This document shows positions 18,715 through 26,595 of a stretch of 64,000 nt of DNA, piece by piece. Position 1 is the stretch's first letter. Each line of letters starts with the position of its first letter. The notes below the pieces were generated by a model that saw only the letters and a program-made list of their open reading frames with translations, did not search any database and had not been told where the DNA came from. The translations under genes and the position numbers were made by a program. Origin of the DNA: Paraglaciecola sp. (GTDB lineage: Bacteria > Pseudomonadota > Gammaproteobacteria > Enterobacterales > Alteromonadaceae); NCBI GenBank assembly GCA_009993955.1, contig JAACSL010000011.1:1-64000 (forward strand). The letters run 5' to 3'.

Positions 18715-18996
18715 CTGAATATTCCACAAAAATCTTTTAACTAGCCTCGCAGTGTACGTGGTGATCAAGGCCTTGCAAGGCAAAAAATGTGTATAAACGT
18801 GTCATGCCAGTTCAGCTGAATTGGCCACCGAAAGTGCCGTCAGGGCTGGTGCAAAATGGTTGTCATATTTTGCTCAACGGGAATGATGGTCACAAACTGA
18901 CCGGTTAAACGGTGTCATATAAACGTCAATAAACTGCAATAAATCAGTCAAAAAGCCATGTTACTTTTGCCCAAACCAGCTGACTGATGAGTTGTA

Positions 18997-20760
18997 ATGA
19001 ATCCGAGCTATGTCACGTATATTGCACTGACTCTTGTCGCGGTGTACCTGCTTTACCGAATTATGGTGCGTTTGCAACTATCACGGGCTAAACACCCCTC
19101 ACTACGTGGACACAGTAAATGGTCGCGTCGGGTTGCCCGTTTTATCCCGTATTTTAGTTACGATGGTGAGCATTTTTTTGCCAGTGACGGGGCGCCACCG
19201 CACATTGTTGACCAACGTCGTCAAGCACTGCATGCACTGCAGCAATCCATGGAAGCAACATCGCCACGTACCCTAGCTTATGCATCAGCCATTGAAAACA
19301 GCATTTCCGACGTGCGTTTTACCAGCCACTACCGCATTCCTTTTCCTTATCGTCAGCAGCTTCCGCAGGTTTTTCGCTTAGGCTCCATCGCCCAAGAAAG
19401 TCAGGGTTCTAAAATCAAAGACTTAGATGGCAATTGGCGTTACGACTTGTCCGGGTCGTATGGCGTTAACGTGTTTGGTTACGATTTTTACAAAACGTGT
19501 ATGGACGATGGCATTGCCCAAGCTCGGCAGCTTGGCCCAGTGTTAGGCAGTTATCATCCTTTGATTGCAGAAAACGTCGAGGCCATTAAAAAGATATCGG
19601 GCTTAGATGAAGTATCGTTTCACATGTCTGGCACCGAAGCGGTGATGCAAGCAGTACGGCTGGCGCGTTACCACACCGGCAAAACGCATTTAGTGCGTTT
19701 TTGTGGCGCTTATCACGGCTGGTGGGATGGGGTACAACCGGGTATTGGCAATACCCGCGTCACTAACGACGTCTACACCTTGGCCGATTTCAGTGAGCAT
19801 AGCTTGCAGGTATTGCGTCGTCGCAAAGATATCGCCTGCGTATTAATAAATCCCTTGCAAGCGTTTCACCCCAATGCCGATGCGCCATCGGATGCCGCTT
19901 TGGTGGCCAGTGATCGAAACACCGATTTTAATAAACAACGTTACAGCCAATGGTTGGCCAATATCCGTGAAATCTGCAGTGCACGAGGGATAGTCTTGAT
20001 CATGGACGAGGTGTTTACTGGCTTTCGTTTGAGTTATCGCGGGGCACAAGGTTTTTACGGTATTCAAGCTGATATGGTGACTTACGGTAAAACACTTGGC
20101 GGGGGCCTGCCCATCGGCGTATTGGCAGGTACCCATAAATTAATGAAACGTTTTAACGATGCGCAGCCGGTGAATGTGTCCTTTGCGCGCGGTACCTTTA
20201 ATAGTCATCCCTATGTAATCGGTGCAATGCATCGCTTTTTAACACGCATCGCCCAAGCCGATATTCAGCAGCAATATGCTGATTCTGAAGCCCTGTGGAA
20301 TAGACGCACTGCACGTTTCAACCAGCGTTTAATCGCCGCAAATCTGCCTGTGCGCATCAGCAATATTCACTCGATTCTGTCAGTGCTTTACACCATACCC
20401 AGCCGCTATAACTGGATGTTGCAGTTCTACCTCAAGCATGCAGGCCTAGAACTCAGTTGGACAGGCACCGGACGTTTGATCATGAGTTTTAGCTTCAGTG
20501 ATGCAGAATTTGACCAAGTGATCGACGCGTTTGTGCGTGGAGCCACCCACATGCAGCAAGATGGCTGGTGGTGGCAGGCGCCACAACTCACTAATAAAAC
20601 CATCAAACGTCAGTTTTTGATGGATATGCTGGGCAGTAAATTTCCGTGGTTGGCGGGCTGGCTTCCGCAACCATTAGCCCAGCGCCAAACCTACCATGCA
20701 TCTATACAAACCTCGAACCATTCGCATGAACACGCAACTAATGTAAGCAAGGTGGGTTAG
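18997..20760 (+). CDS. Class III PLP-dependent aminotransferase (glutamate-1-semialdehyde aminomutase-like) with N-terminal TM anchor
   Basis: N-terminal 'YVTYIALTLVAVYLLYRIMV'; 'SGTEAVMQAVRLARYHTGKTHLVRFCGAYHGWWDG', 'IMDEVFTGFRLSYRGAQG', PLP lysine motif 'YGKTLGGGLPIGVLAG'. Confidence 0.9.
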   Translation: MNPSYVTYIALTLVAVYLLYRIMVRLQLSRAKHPSLRGHSKWSRRVARFIPYFSYDGEHFFASDGAPPHIVDQRRQALHALQQSMEATSPRTLAYASAIENSISDVRFTSHYRIPFPYRQQLPQVFRLGSIAQESQGSKIKDLDGNWRYDLSGSYGVNVFGYDFYKTCMDDGIAQARQLGPVLGSYHPLIAENVEAIKKISGLDEVSFHMSGTEAVMQAVRLARYHTGKTHLVRFCGAYHGWWDGVQPGIGNTRVTNDVYTLADFSEHSLQVLRRRKDIACVLINPLQAFHPNADAPSDAALVASDRNTDFNKQRYSQWLANIREICSARGIVLIMDEVFTGFRLSYRGAQGFYGIQADMVTYGKTLGGGLPIGVLAGTHKLMKRFNDAQPVNVSFARGTFNSHPYVIGAMHRFLTRIAQADIQQQYADSEALWNRRTARFNQRLIAANLPVRISNIHSILSVLYTIPSRYNWMLQFYLKHAGLELSWTGTGRLIMSFSFSDAEFDQVIDAFVRGATHMQQDGWWWQAPQLTNKTIKRQFLMDMLGSKFPWLAGWLPQPLAQRQTYHASIQTSNHSHEHATNVSKVG

Positions 20761-20762
20761 TC

Positions 20763-23519
20763 ATGACCAAGCACACTCAGATAACTAACATGGCGTTGCC
20801 TACACCACCGCCATTTCGCCAAGCCCTCAAAGCAGAGTTTGATCAGTACTTAGCGTCACAAAAAACACGATTTGCTGCCGAAGATTGCCTGCGCATCGAT
20901 TTTCACTGTCACGACCACAACAGTGATGTGCCAGACGAATTGTGGGGTCGCATTTTACGTTTGCCTGAAACCTGGCTGAAAACCAAGAAGCTGGTCAAAC
21001 TGCTCAAAGAAAATGGTAGTTCAGTGGTCACGGTGACCAACCATAACAATGCGCGTTCATGCTGGGAATTACAGGAACAAGGGGAAGACGTATTAGTGGG
21101 GGCTGAATTTACCTGCTACTTCCCTGAGTATGAACTCTTTATTCACGTCTTAACTTACGGCTTTAGCCGTGAACAGGAAAAGGTATTAAACAAAAAGCGT
21201 CAGAATATTTACGACTTTTTGCGTTATGCCGCCAGTGAAGATATTCCGGTGATCATGCCACACCCTTTGTATTTTTATACTCGTAACGAAAAAATTGATC
21301 TGAGTTTGTTTGAAAAACTGGCGGTAATGTTCAGCCGTTTTGAGGTATTAAATGGTCAGCGTGATTTGTGGCAGAGTGTGCTGACCTTAAATTGGGTGCA
21401 GAGTTTAACGGCCGAAAAAATTCATGCCTTTGCACGTAAACACCATCTTAATCCCGCCAGTTTTGGGGTTGATCCACATAAAGCCAAAATACTCACGGGG
21501 GGCTCAGATGATCACACCGGTATTTTTGCTGGACAATGTGGTTCCTACCTCTATGTGCCCAATCTGCAAGAACGACTAAAGACTCAGACCCCCTCTGTGT
21601 TAGCCCTTGAGGCCTTGCGTCAAGGCAATATTGCACCTTTTGGTAACATCGCTGAAAACCAAAAACTGAATATTGCTTTGGTGGATTATTTCTCACAGGT
21701 TGCCACCAAAATGAAAGATCCCGGTTTGTTGCGGGTGTTGTTACACCGTGGCACCGCATGGGACAAAATTGGTTGTTTTGTGGTGAGCAACGTGATGTTA
21801 GAAATGCAAAAACATAAAAAAACCATGAAGTTTTTTGAGTTTGTGCACGATGCCCTGCAAGGTAAAAAACCCAATAAATTGCTCAAATGGCAAGTATCGA
21901 AAGACTACAAATTCTGCATTGGCCAGTTAGAACGCATCGCTGACAGCAAACGGCATCACCCAGAAGTGTTTGTTGAAACCGTCAACAGTGCCATCAGTCA
22001 GCTTTTTAACAACCTCAATAAGTTAGTTGCCAGCCGTGTTAGCAAGGTGATCAGTGGCAACCAAGGTCTGTTGTTAGACAGTTTTTCCACAGAAGAAATC
22101 ACCCGCAAGATGGAAATCCCCAGTCAATTGACATCTTTGTTTTTGGGCGAGGGTAAAAAATCGGAAAACATGAGTAGCATCAACATTGGCAAGATGTTGG
22201 ATAGTCTGTCATTTCCCGTTTTGATCAGTATGATTTTGGCGGGGTCTACCTTGGCTTCAACCCGCGTACTCTATCAAAACCGCGTATTTCTCAATCAATT
22301 TGCCCAGCATCTTGGGCGTAATCATCACAGCAATCGCGCCCTCTATCTCACCGACACCTTGCTGGATAAAAATGGCGTGTCTACCTCCTTGTCGGGCAAA
22401 CTCAAAGAGATGCAGCGCGCTAACTTACCTATTGATTTTCTGATCTGCGATGCCGAGGCTGAGTCGGCTGAGCATTTACATGTGGTGCGCCCAGTGGCCG
22501 AGTTTGATGTGCGGCGTTACGGCGAACAACAAATTCGTATTCCCGATGTGCTGCAGGTAGCGCAGATATTTTATGCAGGGGGCTACGACCGCATCGTCTG
22601 TTCAACCGAAGGCCCCATGGCGGTTGTTGCTTTGTTTATTCAACAAATGTTTAACGTACCTAGCTTCTTTTTCATGCACACCGATTGGATTGACTTTATC
22701 AAACACACCACCGATTTGAATCAGCATGAACGTGACCGTGTGCGGCGTTTGATGCGCGCGTTGTACAATCGTTTTGATGGTGTCTTTGTGCTCAATCATG
22801 AACACAAAAACTGGCTCACCAGCCACGAAATGCAACTGCCCGAAGCGCGTGTTTTTCTCACTGCCCACCACACTCAGCCTCGTGATATGCAGGTACAGCG
22901 GGTAGCCAAAGGCAGCATTGTCCCCGGCGCTACCGATGCGACGCCGGTATTGTTTATCGCCTGTCGTTTGAGTGAAGAGAAGGGCATTTTTGATTTGCCT
23001 GAGATTGTCGCCAAGGCAAAACAAGCCTTGCCCGACCTGCGCATTGTAGTGGCAGGCTCGGGGCCAGCCAGTGAAAAACTCAAACAAAAACTACCTGAGG
23101 CGATTTTCCTTGGCTGGCAGAGCAAAAAACAACTGGCGGCCCTCTACCTCAGTTTGGACTTATTTGTATTTCCATCGCGCTTTGATACGTTTGGCAATGT
23201 CATTTTAGAAGCCTTTGTGCATGGCATGCCCACCGTGGCTTACAACTGCAAGGGACCCAAAGACCTAATTCAGCATGAGGTAAACGGCTACCTGGCAGAT
23301 GATCTCGGTACAATGGTGGCGAATATCGTGAAGTACTTCCATGATGCAAGCCAACAACAACACATGCGTAAACAAGCCACCTTGCGTGCCAGTGAATATC
23401 AGGCAGAACCTATAATGCAGCAGTTTATGCTTAATTTGGGTTTGCAAGTTCCCGATGGCTACTATGCTGCGCCAAGCACCGTGCATAGCGTGACTCAGCT
23501 GCACAGAACGGTGGCTTGA
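20763..23519 (+). CDS. Fusion protein: N-terminal PHP-like phosphoesterase domain and C-terminal GT4-type glycosyltransferase
   Basis: PHP motifs 'DFHCHDHNSD', 'VTNHNN', 'MPHPLYFY', 'GGSDDHTG'; GT4 motifs 'IACRLSEEKGIFDLPEIV', 'VVAGSGPASEKL', 'FLGWQSKKQLAALYLSLDLFVFPSRFDTFGNVILEAFVHGMPTVAYNCKGPKDLI'. Confidence 0.88.
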   Translation: MTKHTQITNMALPTPPPFRQALKAEFDQYLASQKTRFAAEDCLRIDFHCHDHNSDVPDELWGRILRLPETWLKTKKLVKLLKENGSSVVTVTNHNNARSCWELQEQGEDVLVGAEFTCYFPEYELFIHVLTYGFSREQEKVLNKKRQNIYDFLRYAASEDIPVIMPHPLYFYTRNEKIDLSLFEKLAVMFSRFEVLNGQRDLWQSVLTLNWVQSLTAEKIHAFARKHHLNPASFGVDPHKAKILTGGSDDHTGIFAGQCGSYLYVPNLQERLKTQTPSVLALEALRQGNIAPFGNIAENQKLNIALVDYFSQVATKMKDPGLLRVLLHRGTAWDKIGCFVVSNVMLEMQKHKKTMKFFEFVHDALQGKKPNKLLKWQVSKDYKFCIGQLERIADSKRHHPEVFVETVNSAISQLFNNLNKLVASRVSKVISGNQGLLLDSFSTEEITRKMEIPSQLTSLFLGEGKKSENMSSINIGKMLDSLSFPVLISMILAGSTLASTRVLYQNRVFLNQFAQHLGRNHHSNRALYLTDTLLDKNGVSTSLSGKLKEMQRANLPIDFLICDAEAESAEHLHVVRPVAEFDVRRYGEQQIRIPDVLQVAQIFYAGGYDRIVCSTEGPMAVVALFIQQMFNVPSFFFMHTDWIDFIKHTTDLNQHERDRVRRLMRALYNRFDGVFVLNHEHKNWLTSHEMQLPEARVFLTAHHTQPRDMQVQRVAKGSIVPGATDATPVLFIACRLSEEKGIFDLPEIVAKAKQALPDLRIVVAGSGPASEKLKQKLPEAIFLGWQSKKQLAALYLSLDLFVFPSRFDTFGNVILEAFVHGMPTVAYNCKGPKDLIQHEVNGYLADDLGTMVANIVKYFHDASQQQHMRKQATLRASEYQAEPIMQQFMLNLGLQVPDGYYAAPSTVHSVTQLHRTVA

Positions 23520-24430
23520 TGTTAAAGACAGCAACGGTTTCCTTGACCAAACAAGAACAACTGAATTTTTTATTAACTAATCGAATTCCGCGCCGCTGGC
23601 TTACCTTGTTTATGGGCTGGTTCAGTCAAATTGAGAGCCCGTGGTTGACTAAGCTTTCCATTGCCATCTGGCAGCTATTTGCCGAAGACTTGCGTTTAGA
23701 AGACGCTAAACAACAATCCTTTTCCAGTTTAGGCGCGTGTTTTACCCGCCAGTTAAAAGATGGCTTACGCCCAGTTGATCAGCGTGCCGATGTGGTGACC
23801 AGCCCGTGTGATGCCATTGTTGGTGCCTGTGGGCAAGTGCAAGGCACGCAACTTTTTCAGGCCAAGGGTTTCCCTTATGAATTAAGCGATTTGATCCCCG
23901 ACAGCCATATTGCCAATAAATACCGCAATGGTGTGTTTGTCACCCTGCGTCTCAAATCCAGTATGTATCACCGTTTTCATGCCCCGATTGATTGTCACGT
24001 CAGCAAGGTTGACTACATCTCAGGTGATACGTGGAACGTCAACCCCATTGCCTTGAAACGCATCGAAAAGTTGTTTTGTAAAAATGAACGGGCGGTTATC
24101 GAACTGCACAATCACAGCACGAACGGCAGCATTACTTTGGTACCCGTGGCCGCTATTTTAGTGGCAAGCATGAAATTTCATTTTTTATCCGACACCTTAG
24201 ATTTGAAGTATCAGGGGCCTAATCAATTGCCCTGTAATGCGAGTTTTACTAAAGGTGATGAAATGGGCTATTTCCAACATGGCTCAACCATCATCGTATT
24301 TGCCAGCGGCAACTATCAATTGTGCCCGGGCATTGGCGAAGGAACGCCAATTAAAATGGGGCAAGCCCTGCTGCGCGATCACAGTGATTCGCCCTATTCA
24401 TCAACCCTTAATGCGCCGCAAAGCCATTAA
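23519..24430 (+). CDS. Phosphatidylserine-decarboxylase-family protein
   Basis: 'KYRNGVFVTLRLKSSMYHRFHAPIDCHVSKVDYISGDTWNVNPIALKRI'; self-cleavage-like 'KGDEMGYFQHGSTIIVF'. ATG overlaps the TGA of the upstream gene. Confidence 0.87.
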   Translation: MLKTATVSLTKQEQLNFLLTNRIPRRWLTLFMGWFSQIESPWLTKLSIAIWQLFAEDLRLEDAKQQSFSSLGACFTRQLKDGLRPVDQRADVVTSPCDAIVGACGQVQGTQLFQAKGFPYELSDLIPDSHIANKYRNGVFVTLRLKSSMYHRFHAPIDCHVSKVDYISGDTWNVNPIALKRIEKLFCKNERAVIELHNHSTNGSITLVPVAAILVASMKFHFLSDTLDLKYQGPNQLPCNASFTKGDEMGYFQHGSTIIVFASGNYQLCPGIGEGTPIKMGQALLRDHSDSPYSSTLNAPQSH

Positions 24431-24459
24431 TACAACTGTTCAACCCGCAAGGAAAATCC

Positions 24460-25095
24460 ATGACCTTTTACCAAGAATTACAAAAACAACGTTGGGATGA
24501 TCACCGTTATTATCATCACAATCGCATTAATCAATTTTTGCATTTACTCAGCGCCAGCTGTTTTTTAGCCAGCTATGTTCTGGTGTTTTATTACCCCGCT
24601 GCGGCCGCTTTAGTCGGCTGGTTGTTAGCCATGGTATTACGTCAAACCGGCCACTTTTTCTTCGAACCTAAAACCTATGACGAAGTGAACAAGGCCACCC
24701 ATGAGTACAAAGAAAGCGTCAAGGTGGGTTACAACCTGAGCCGCAAAGTGGTGTTGTTGAGTATCTGGGCTTTAGTACCGGTGGTGTTGTACGTTAAACC
24801 TGACTTTTTTGGGGTATTTACGCCAGCCACTAACTTTCCTGAGTTCATCAATAACATGGCGATTATTTGGTTGTACGTGGGCTTGGGTGCGATTGCGTTT
24901 CGTACCCTGCACTTGTTCAAATTAATGGGCGTGCAAAGTGGTTTGGTATGGATGAGTAAAATCATCACTGACCCCTTCCACGACATCAAGATTTACTACA
25001 AATCGCCGTATTACATCCTCAAAGGGGAAATGTACGACAACATGGACGATTGGTACGTAGAAGTCTCGTTTGAAAATCAGGCACTCAAACCATAA
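24460..25095 (+). CDS. Mpo1/DUF962-like multi-pass membrane protein
   Basis: 'DDHRYYHHNRINQFLHLLSASCF' and 'RQTGHFFFEPKTYDEVNK' resemble the His motifs of Mpo1/DUF962; family call by recall only. Confidence 0.55.
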   Translation: MTFYQELQKQRWDDHRYYHHNRINQFLHLLSASCFLASYVLVFYYPAAAALVGWLLAMVLRQTGHFFFEPKTYDEVNKATHEYKESVKVGYNLSRKVVLLSIWALVPVVLYVKPDFFGVFTPATNFPEFINNMAIIWLYVGLGAIAFRTLHLFKLMGVQSGLVWMSKIITDPFHDIKIYYKSPYYILKGEMYDNMDDWYVEVSFENQALKP

Positions 25096-25195: not shown

Positions 25196-25624
25196 ATGCT
25201 GCTTTTAGTCTTTCTTATCAATACCTTGGTGGTGGCTGTCGTTGTTATCGTGCACTACGAATTTCTGCGTTTACTCAGCAAACTCATCATTTTGGTAAAA
25301 ATTAAACCACGCCTGCGCATTGTGTTTGGGGTGTTTGGTGCGCTGCTTGCCCATGCTGTAGAAGTATGGATTTTCGCCTTCGCCTATTACGCCATGATCA
25401 ACCTCGATGGCTGGGGACAACTCAGCGGGAATATCGACGGTAGTGTATTGGATTGTGTGTACTTTTCGTTTTCGGTGTTTAGCACCGTTGGTTTTGGTGA
25501 CATCGTGCCCTTGGGCCATCTGCGTTACTTAACCGGTATTGAATCACTCACAGGTTTGGTGCTGATTACTTGGTCAGCCTCTTTTTTATATTATGAGATG
25601 CAAAAATACTGGCACAAAGCCTAA
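25196..25624 (+). CDS. Two-TM potassium-channel-like (Ion_trans_2) protein
   Basis: Selectivity-filter-like 'FSVFSTVGFGDIVPLG' flanked by TM helices. Confidence 0.85.
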   Translation: MLLLVFLINTLVVAVVVIVHYEFLRLLSKLIILVKIKPRLRIVFGVFGALLAHAVEVWIFAFAYYAMINLDGWGQLSGNIDGSVLDCVYFSFSVFSTVGFGDIVPLGHLRYLTGIESLTGLVLITWSASFLYYEMQKYWHKA

Positions 25625-25678
25625 TATATCTACTTAATAAGTTGGCGTTTTACCTAGCGATATTGAGGAGCAAAGCAC

Positions 25679-26266
25679 ATGTTAAAACTTTACGGTTCAA
25701 CCACCTCTCCTTATGTGCGACGTCTGCGTATTTGGTTAGCCAATACTCAGCATGAATTTGTCAACGTGCAGATTTTTGAGCCGGCGGATCGCAGCGACAT
25801 GATCCTAAAAAATCCCACCATGAAAATCCCCATGCTGGAAGATGTGCACGAAAACCAGATAAAACGAATCTATGACTCGCGGATCATCTATCGTTATTTA
25901 GCTGAAAAGTTTGCCTACCCTGCATTAGATTGGCAGCAAGAGAATCAGCTCACCCTCATTGATTCGGCCAATGATTCCCTGGTGCAAATGTTTATTTTGG
26001 CCAAATCGGGGATTGCCGCTGATGAGCAAAAGCTATTTTTTAAATTGCAAAAAGATCGTGTTAATGCGGTATTGGTTGAACTGAATGAGCTCGTCGCAGA
26101 CGGTCATTTTAGCAGTTGGCATTATCCAGCAGTGTGTTTGTATTGCTTGATTGATTGGATTGAATTTCGCAGTTTACATAATTTAAAAGGCCTGCATGAG
26201 CTGTTAGCCTTTCACGAAAATAATCAACAACGTATTGAAGTCACCGCAAGTGACCCCAGAACGTAA
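25679..26266 (+). CDS. Glutathione S-transferase family protein
   Basis: 'MLKLYGSTTSPYVRRLRIWLANTQHEFVNVQIFEPADRSDMILKNPTMKIPMLE...DSRIIYRYLAEKF'. Confidence 0.88.
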   Translation: MLKLYGSTTSPYVRRLRIWLANTQHEFVNVQIFEPADRSDMILKNPTMKIPMLEDVHENQIKRIYDSRIIYRYLAEKFAYPALDWQQENQLTLIDSANDSLVQMFILAKSGIAADEQKLFFKLQKDRVNAVLVELNELVADGHFSSWHYPAVCLYCLIDWIEFRSLHNLKGLHELLAFHENNQQRIEVTASDPRT

Positions 26267-26292
26267 ACAATGTCTTAAAAATTGGAAATAAC

Positions 26293-26595
26293 ATGGATCA
26301 GCAACAACAAACCGAAGCCCAAGCCTATGCCTTTCGCACCTTAGTTAAGCACTTAGATGCCAACAAAGACGTGCAAAACATTGATCTGATGATCCTTGCC
26401 GACTTCTGCCGTAACTGCTTGGCTAAATGGTATATGGCGGGGGCACAGCAACAAAACGTCGACATGGATTATGACCAAGCACGAGAAGCGATTTACGGCA
26501 TGCCTTTTGCGCAGTGGAAAGCACAATACCAAGCGCCAGCTACACCAGAGCAATTGGCTAAATTTGCCGAGCGTGAAGCCGCTAAAAAAGCCTAA
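26293..26595 (+). CDS. DUF1244-like protein
   Basis: 'AFRTLVKHLDANKDVQNIDLMILADFCRNCLAKWY...AREAIYGMPFAQWKAQYQ'. Confidence 0.85.
   Translation: MDQQQQTEAQAYAFRTLVKHLDANKDVQNIDLMILADFCRNCLAKWYMAGAQQQNVDMDYDQAREAIYGMPFAQWKAQYQAPATPEQLAKFAEREAAKKA

Follow-up and report, generated by a model that had tools for sequence, protein, structure and literature searches.

A candidate Pho-regulated lipid-remodelling operon of Paraglaciecola combining a putative PHP-GT4 fusion with a possible aminolipid module

The 64-kb stretch of Paraglaciecola DNA analysed here (the window) carries on its + strand four tightly packed genes that encode a class III PLP aminotransferase (AT), a PHP-GT4 fusion protein (PHP-GT), a PSD-family protein (PSD) and an Mpo1-like membrane protein (MPO) (Table 1). 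On balance, we consider it probable that these genes form a Pho-regulated lipid-remodelling operon, in which the PHP-GT4 protein would act in place of PlcP and Agt while AT, MPO and PSD would supply an aminolipid. The gene order, the co-inheritance of the genes and the sequence of the Pho box come directly from the computations described below.

Shortage of phosphorus restricts growth over much of the ocean. Lipid remodelling by the PlcP-Agt system under phosphorus deficiency is known (PMC4796936; PMC8528852; PMC9239053), and surveys of such remodelling in bacteria have relied on plcP as their marker (PMC4796936); new here are the PHP-GT4 variant and the three-enzyme branch, which may be a new pathway. 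If our reading is correct, Paraglaciecola species lacking plcP may remodel their lipids with a different, fused enzyme, as possibly do other carriers such as Colwellia, Psychrosphaera, Marinobacter, Mariprofundus and Halioglobus, and the co-inherited AT-MPO-PSD trio would indicate a missing aminolipid pathway.

Table 1. Coordinates of the operon genes and of the predicted promoter element in the window
Feature	Position	Strand	Remarks
Pho box (predicted site of PhoB binding)	18913..18941	+	three direct repeats of 11 bp, TGTCATATAAA CGTCAATAAAC TGCAATA
AT, class III PLP aminotransferase, 587 aa	18997..20760	+	PF00202, Lys/Asp conserved
PHP-GT4 fusion, 918 aa	20763..23519	+	GT4 by Pfam and AF2/Foldseek; PHP by motifs only
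PSD paralogue, pyruvoyl type	23519..24430	+	PF02666, TIGR00163, catalytic Asp/His/Ser
MPO, Mpo1-like (DUF962) polytopic membrane protein, 211 aa	24460..25095	+	PF06127, conserved residues

Layout and conservation of the cassette

The four same-strand reading frames and their near-zero spacing, first noticed in a sequence-only reading of this DNA, were confirmed. The TGATG stop/start overlap at 23517-23521 is real and the spacer preceding 24460 is 29 bp long; ATG at 23519 is the likelier start of PSD, with TTG at 23516 as the alternative. The family calls made in that reading for the aminotransferase, the GT4 and the PSD also stood, and the Mpo1-like call survived marginally, by a partial profile match of 24.8 bits to PF06127 (cut-off 24).

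PHP-GT was searched for in a sample of 21 congeners and 39 other relatives. It was found in 10 of the 21 congeners, at 75-78% identity, and the order and strand of AT, PHP-GT, PSD and MPO are kept in all ten; none of the 39 relatives outside the genus sample has a full-length PHP-GT, and MPO is present in precisely the 11 of 61 genomes that bear one. The identical cassette also occurs, in the class and phylum samples, in another genus of the family, in another family and in another class. A species-wide scan of 84,980 species genomes recovered 78 PHP-GT loci; all four genes are in order in 47 of them, contig ends interrupt a further 7, and 24 have PHP-GT without AT, PSD and MPO. The sequence-only reading had made its proposal depend on the genes being conserved together, which they are: the shared order and strand go far beyond chance and are neither a chance neighbourhood nor an artefact. 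Among the 24 trio-less proteins, 22 form a more distant group (36-54% identity), while L076 and L084 have PHP-GTs of the cassette group without AT, PSD and MPO, which indicates that the PHP-GT and AT-MPO-PSD modules are not obligate partners.

Some features of individual loci may be added. Two differing copies of the cassette lie on separate contigs of a single Colwellia assembly (L082 and L083, MAAE01), owing to a duplication or to a mixed bin. The ion-channel gene downstream of the operon (window 25196-26595) was not found in the 10 congeneric cassette loci. GST-like and DUF1244 genes, located further downstream, are near the cassette in several congeneric loci, and the recurrence of these neighbours suggests a stable insertion site for the cassette.

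Predicted control by phosphate starvation

The Pho box precedes the start codon of AT by about 84 bp. A de novo motif search, run with no prior on 44 regions upstream of AT, learned the motif TGTCATAAAAaCGTCACAAAACTGAAATA, composed of three 11-bp repeats, which is the layout of PhoB sites. At width 22 its log-likelihood was 260, compared to 79-94 in four shuffled sets. The genus's own phoB promoters have a low motif score and E. coli was used as the control instead: in two E. coli K-12 stretches of 20 kb each the two best matches of the motif were the phoB and pstS promoter sites. In the window, over both strands of the 64 kb, the top match of the motif is the site at 18913. When the motif was retrained with every Alteromonadales locus excluded, this site still ranked first, and the phoB and pstS promoters were again at the top of the two E. 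coli stretches. Pho-box-like sites precede distant PHP-GT genes too; such a site at L076 is divergent from a phoX gene, and at L059-L061 one lies ahead of a GNAT-PHP-GT operon. No clear motif site was seen in most high-GC loci, and a PstS search of the Paraglaciecola genome itself gave no clear pst locus. A hand-made TGTCA-N6-TGTCA scan was weak alone (11 of 45 with p<0.05) and the de novo motif was used instead of it.

These observations make it very probable that the operon is under PhoB/phosphate-starvation control through the predicted Pho box. When phosphate runs out, PhoB would bind the triple site and the operon would be expressed. The sequence-only reading had recognised a conserved lipid-directed set, for which we likewise found no name, and had overlooked this regulation.

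Another strong Pho-box match (score 20.8) was observed on contig C81 of the same genome (L202, 6004-6032, - strand), immediately ahead of a GGDEF-EAL gene, a hint that cyclic-di-GMP signalling may respond to phosphate starvation.

The PHP-GT4 fusion and its relation to PlcP and Agt

The fusion protein consists of a PHP-like region (approximately residues 40-300), a helical linker and a GT4 domain (approximately residues 520-895). The GT4 domain is recognised by Pfam with scores of 88.7 and 87.1 bits. The N-terminal assignment to PHP is made from motifs only: the putative metal ligands H48, H50, H94, E115, H167, D249 and H251 are invariant in 50 homologues, and the PHP call is weaker than had been stated before, with no PHP domain found in the N-terminus at the Pfam threshold (best E 0.075). 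An hhalign comparison of the PHP half with E. coli RNase AM gave no match; in a Foldseek search with the whole fusion the match list was filled by GT4 and no PHP was recognised, and a tblastn search of plasmids with PHP-GT matched the GT4 half only.

The parallel with PlcP-Agt phosphate-starvation remodelling, overlooked in the sequence-only reading, became apparent in the class sample, which includes eight genomes with MPO and without PHP-GT. AT is close to MPO in all eight, PSD is also close in five (one more, L226, is cut by the contig), and a separate GT4, whose best NCBIfam matches are lipid glycosyltransferases, is nearby in seven. Five of the eight loci also contain a calcineurin-type phosphoesterase of one family. 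Its best NCBIfam match is UDP-2,3-diacylglucosamine diphosphatase, below the cut-off, and its plasmid homologues, two of which adjoin GT4 genes, are annotated under the same name; judging by the gene context and by its PlcP motifs, this phosphoesterase is probably PlcP. A homologue of it is present in 7 of 11 cassette-negative congeners and in none of 11 cassette-positive Paraglaciecola genomes, the one studied here included (Fisher p=0.004 over 22 congeners, kinship ignored). In a GT4 tree of the PlcP-associated GT4s and 19 other GT4s, none of them a characterised Agt, the domain from PHP-GT groups with the PlcP-type GT4s with a support of 0.965. Seventeen of the 19 other GT4s fall apart from this group; of the two exceptions, one shares 55% identity with a PlcP-type GT4, while the second carries a calcineurin-like domain as a fusion of its own.

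The mutual exclusion and the GT4 tree together argue that PHP-GT replaces PlcP-Agt, and the simplest reading is that the one-chain protein would do the work of both PlcP and Agt. The PHP domain would convert a phospholipid (or phosphatidate) to diacylglycerol, and the GT4 domain fused to it would glycosylate this product. We consider such a glycolipid role likely, and are more confident of it than of the reading of the operon as a whole. Both systems are Pho-box-preceded operons pairing a phosphoesterase, in the cassette a putative one, with a GT4, their GT4 domains group together and homologues of PlcP-Agt stand in for PHP-GT beside AT, MPO and PSD. In the cassette, however, the putative phosphoesterase is PHP-like and fused to the GT4, whereas PlcP is a phospholipase C of the calcineurin type, and AT, PSD and MPO are added.

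Other fusions and more distant operons were encountered in the course of the survey. In another genus of the family a 758-residue frame (L015, 103-2376, + strand) has calcineurin-phosphoesterase-like motifs, recognised by eye, fused to a GT4, and is possibly an independent phosphoesterase-GT4 fusion. A second group of PHP-GTs (L118, L121, L124, L128, L129, L130, L132, L134 and L135) has a recurrent partner, the cluster c7 protein of 780-880 aa, which often directly precedes PHP-GT, belongs to no Pfam family and is glycoside-hydrolase-like in the appearance of its sequence; the same fusion may here serve a different pathway. Distant PHP-GT operons with a histidine phosphatase were found in L059 (8640-13022), L060 (9076-12302) and L061 (7988-12165), with a GNAT (Acetyltransf_5) gene upstream in L059 and L061. 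In L126 (12765-16250) and also in L127, downstream of a distant PHP-GT, come an 824 aa protein that belongs to no Pfam family and a PSD of divergent sequence (22-23% identity).

The AT-MPO-PSD module

AT matches PF00202 (Aminotran_3) with 110.5 bits; the Schiff-base Lys365 and the cofactor-binding Asp337 are invariant in 17 homologues, and its N-terminus contains a hydrophobic segment resembling a membrane anchor. The nearest solved relative is the aminotransferase of mycosubtilin synthase (6kfm, profile 7e-62), followed by glutamate-1-semialdehyde aminomutase at about 1e-37; an assignment as HemL was rejected at 166 bits against an equivalog cut-off of 527. The mycosubtilin enzyme aminates a 3-oxoacyl chain. 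AT shares with these two enzymes the class III PLP fold and the catalytic residues, but it is stand-alone, has the hydrophobic N-terminus and in two genomes (L228 and L229) it is joined to MPO as a single chain of 738-742 aa. This fusion, overlooked in the sequence-only reading together with the separability of the trio, which accompanies either PHP-GT4 or PlcP plus GT4, makes it very likely that AT and MPO act together.

MPO was modelled by AF2 as a helical protein (pLDDT 80), and a fold search with the model gave no match. Residues H15, H19, H20, H28, H65, E69, D171 and D175 are invariant in 32 homologues. Yeast Mpo1 acts on 2-hydroxy fatty acids. MPO is likewise a polytopic membrane protein and has the N-terminal His/Glu motifs; the similarity to Mpo1 (DUF962) is, however, marginal and confined to the N-terminal half, whereas the C-terminal half, with a DPxHD-type motif, is MPO's own.

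PSD matches PF02666 (PS_Dcarbxylase) with 188.7 bits and TIGR00163 above the cut-off, and it shares with E. coli PSD the fold family, the N-terminal membrane-association region and the equivalents of the catalytic set Asp90, His144 and Ser254. It differs in the cleavage motif (HGST versus LGST) and in the replacement of Asp142 by Met. In the E. coli enzyme the side chains of Tyr137 and Ser166 contact the phosphate (PMC7952604), and the aligned cassette proteins have Arg and Asn at these positions. Since Arg is found at the Tyr137 position in about 15% of PSDs (PMC7952604), the cassette PSD may still use phosphatidylserine. A separate housekeeping psd, 27% identical to the cassette PSD, is present in the genome.

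All 10 main loci read from the phylum sample have AT, MPO and PSD close together, accompanied in eight of them (L247 partial) by a GT4 of the PHP-GT/PlcP type. Several of these loci also encode a methyltransferase with the best NCBIfam match, below the cut-off, to the phospholipid N-methyltransferase PmtA. Among the eight class-sample loci with MPO and without PHP-GT, the surroundings in L222 include PhoX, PhoU, PAP2 and an acyltransferase-GNAT fusion; L225 has an OlsF above its equivalog cut-off; a BtaA-family protein with a methyltransferase was found in L228, together with alkaline phosphatase, and in L229; L227 has a UDP-glucose dehydrogenase and L224 a phytase-like protein. The BtaAB and OlsF genes are, as proposed for the trio, phosphorus-free aminolipid genes of phosphate starvation, and they share islands with AT and MPO (BtaA family in L228 and L229, OlsF in L222 and L225), but AT, PSD and MPO have no sequence relation to them. 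Because BtaA or OlsF is present besides the trio, the latter probably makes something else.

We propose that AT, MPO and PSD constitute a second, separable module, which would produce an amine-bearing, phosphorus-free lipid replacing phosphatidylethanolamine. MPO and AT would share one membrane substrate, probably by oxidation and then transamination, and PSD would generate a primary amine by decarboxylating a lipid that bears an amino acid. To our knowledge, no enzyme acts in the way proposed for MPO and AT. The aminolipid role is put forward tentatively, and both its chemistry and its sequence of steps are inferred.

The proposal has to be weighed against the possibility that PSD is a second phosphatidylserine decarboxylase and that AT and MPO modify acyl chains (e.g., to 2- or 3-amino acyl) with no new head group. 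The passing TIGR00163 score, the occurrence in several genomes of a PmtA-like methyltransferase next to PSD and the acyl substrates of the mycosubtilin aminotransferase and of Mpo1 are in agreement with this, but the genome already has its housekeeping psd, both phosphate-contacting side chains are altered in the paralogue, and making more phosphatidylethanolamine under phosphate starvation would be counterproductive; we regard this explanation as unlikely. Slightly less probable still is a phosphate salvage route, in which PSD would make phosphatidylethanolamine, the PHP domain would split it into diacylglycerol and phosphoethanolamine, and AT, as a phosphoethanolamine phospho-lyase, would free the phosphate, leaving only the glycolipid as a new product. 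Class III PLP enzymes do include phosphoethanolamine phospho-lyase, and both the Pho control and the second PSD fit such a route; AT, however, most closely resembles the mycosubtilin aminotransferase and the glutamate-1-semialdehyde aminomutases, its 60 best solved relatives include no phospho-lyase, so this function of AT is not favoured, its predicted membrane anchor and its fusion to MPO would be odd for a soluble substrate, and MPO would be left without a role. That the product is a surface polysaccharide, a thiol or another non-lipid compound made on a soluble GT4 acceptor is very improbable: neither the GT4 nor the PHP family is specific to lipids and BshA and MshA are among the top fold matches of PHP-GT4, but the Pho box, the exclusion with the PlcP homologue, the OlsF and BtaA-family neighbours and the lipid-glycosyltransferase matches of the partner GT4 all speak against it.

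The changed phosphate contacts of PSD, the separate psd and the relatedness of AT to the mycosubtilin enzyme favour the amine-bearing, phosphorus-free lipid. The earlier suggestion that the gene set adds an amino or sugar headgroup to a membrane lipid fits the evidence, the product itself being putative. A wider joint reading, which we hold with no more conviction than the aminolipid role, would be that AT, MPO and PSD are an undescribed aminolipid pathway and PHP-GT4 a new class of one-protein glycolipid synthase, that the pathway occurs in several proteobacterial lineages, in many cases linked to Pho-regulon or lipid-remodelling genes, and that the aminolipid is N-methylated where the PmtA-like enzyme occurs. 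Text searches, with most subscription journals outside their coverage, brought up no publication in which these gene families are connected.

One further locus, L252 (9551-11392), has a second, divergent MPO (48% identity); its neighbour is another aminotransferase-like gene, and the AT-MPO-PSD cluster is present in this genome as well.
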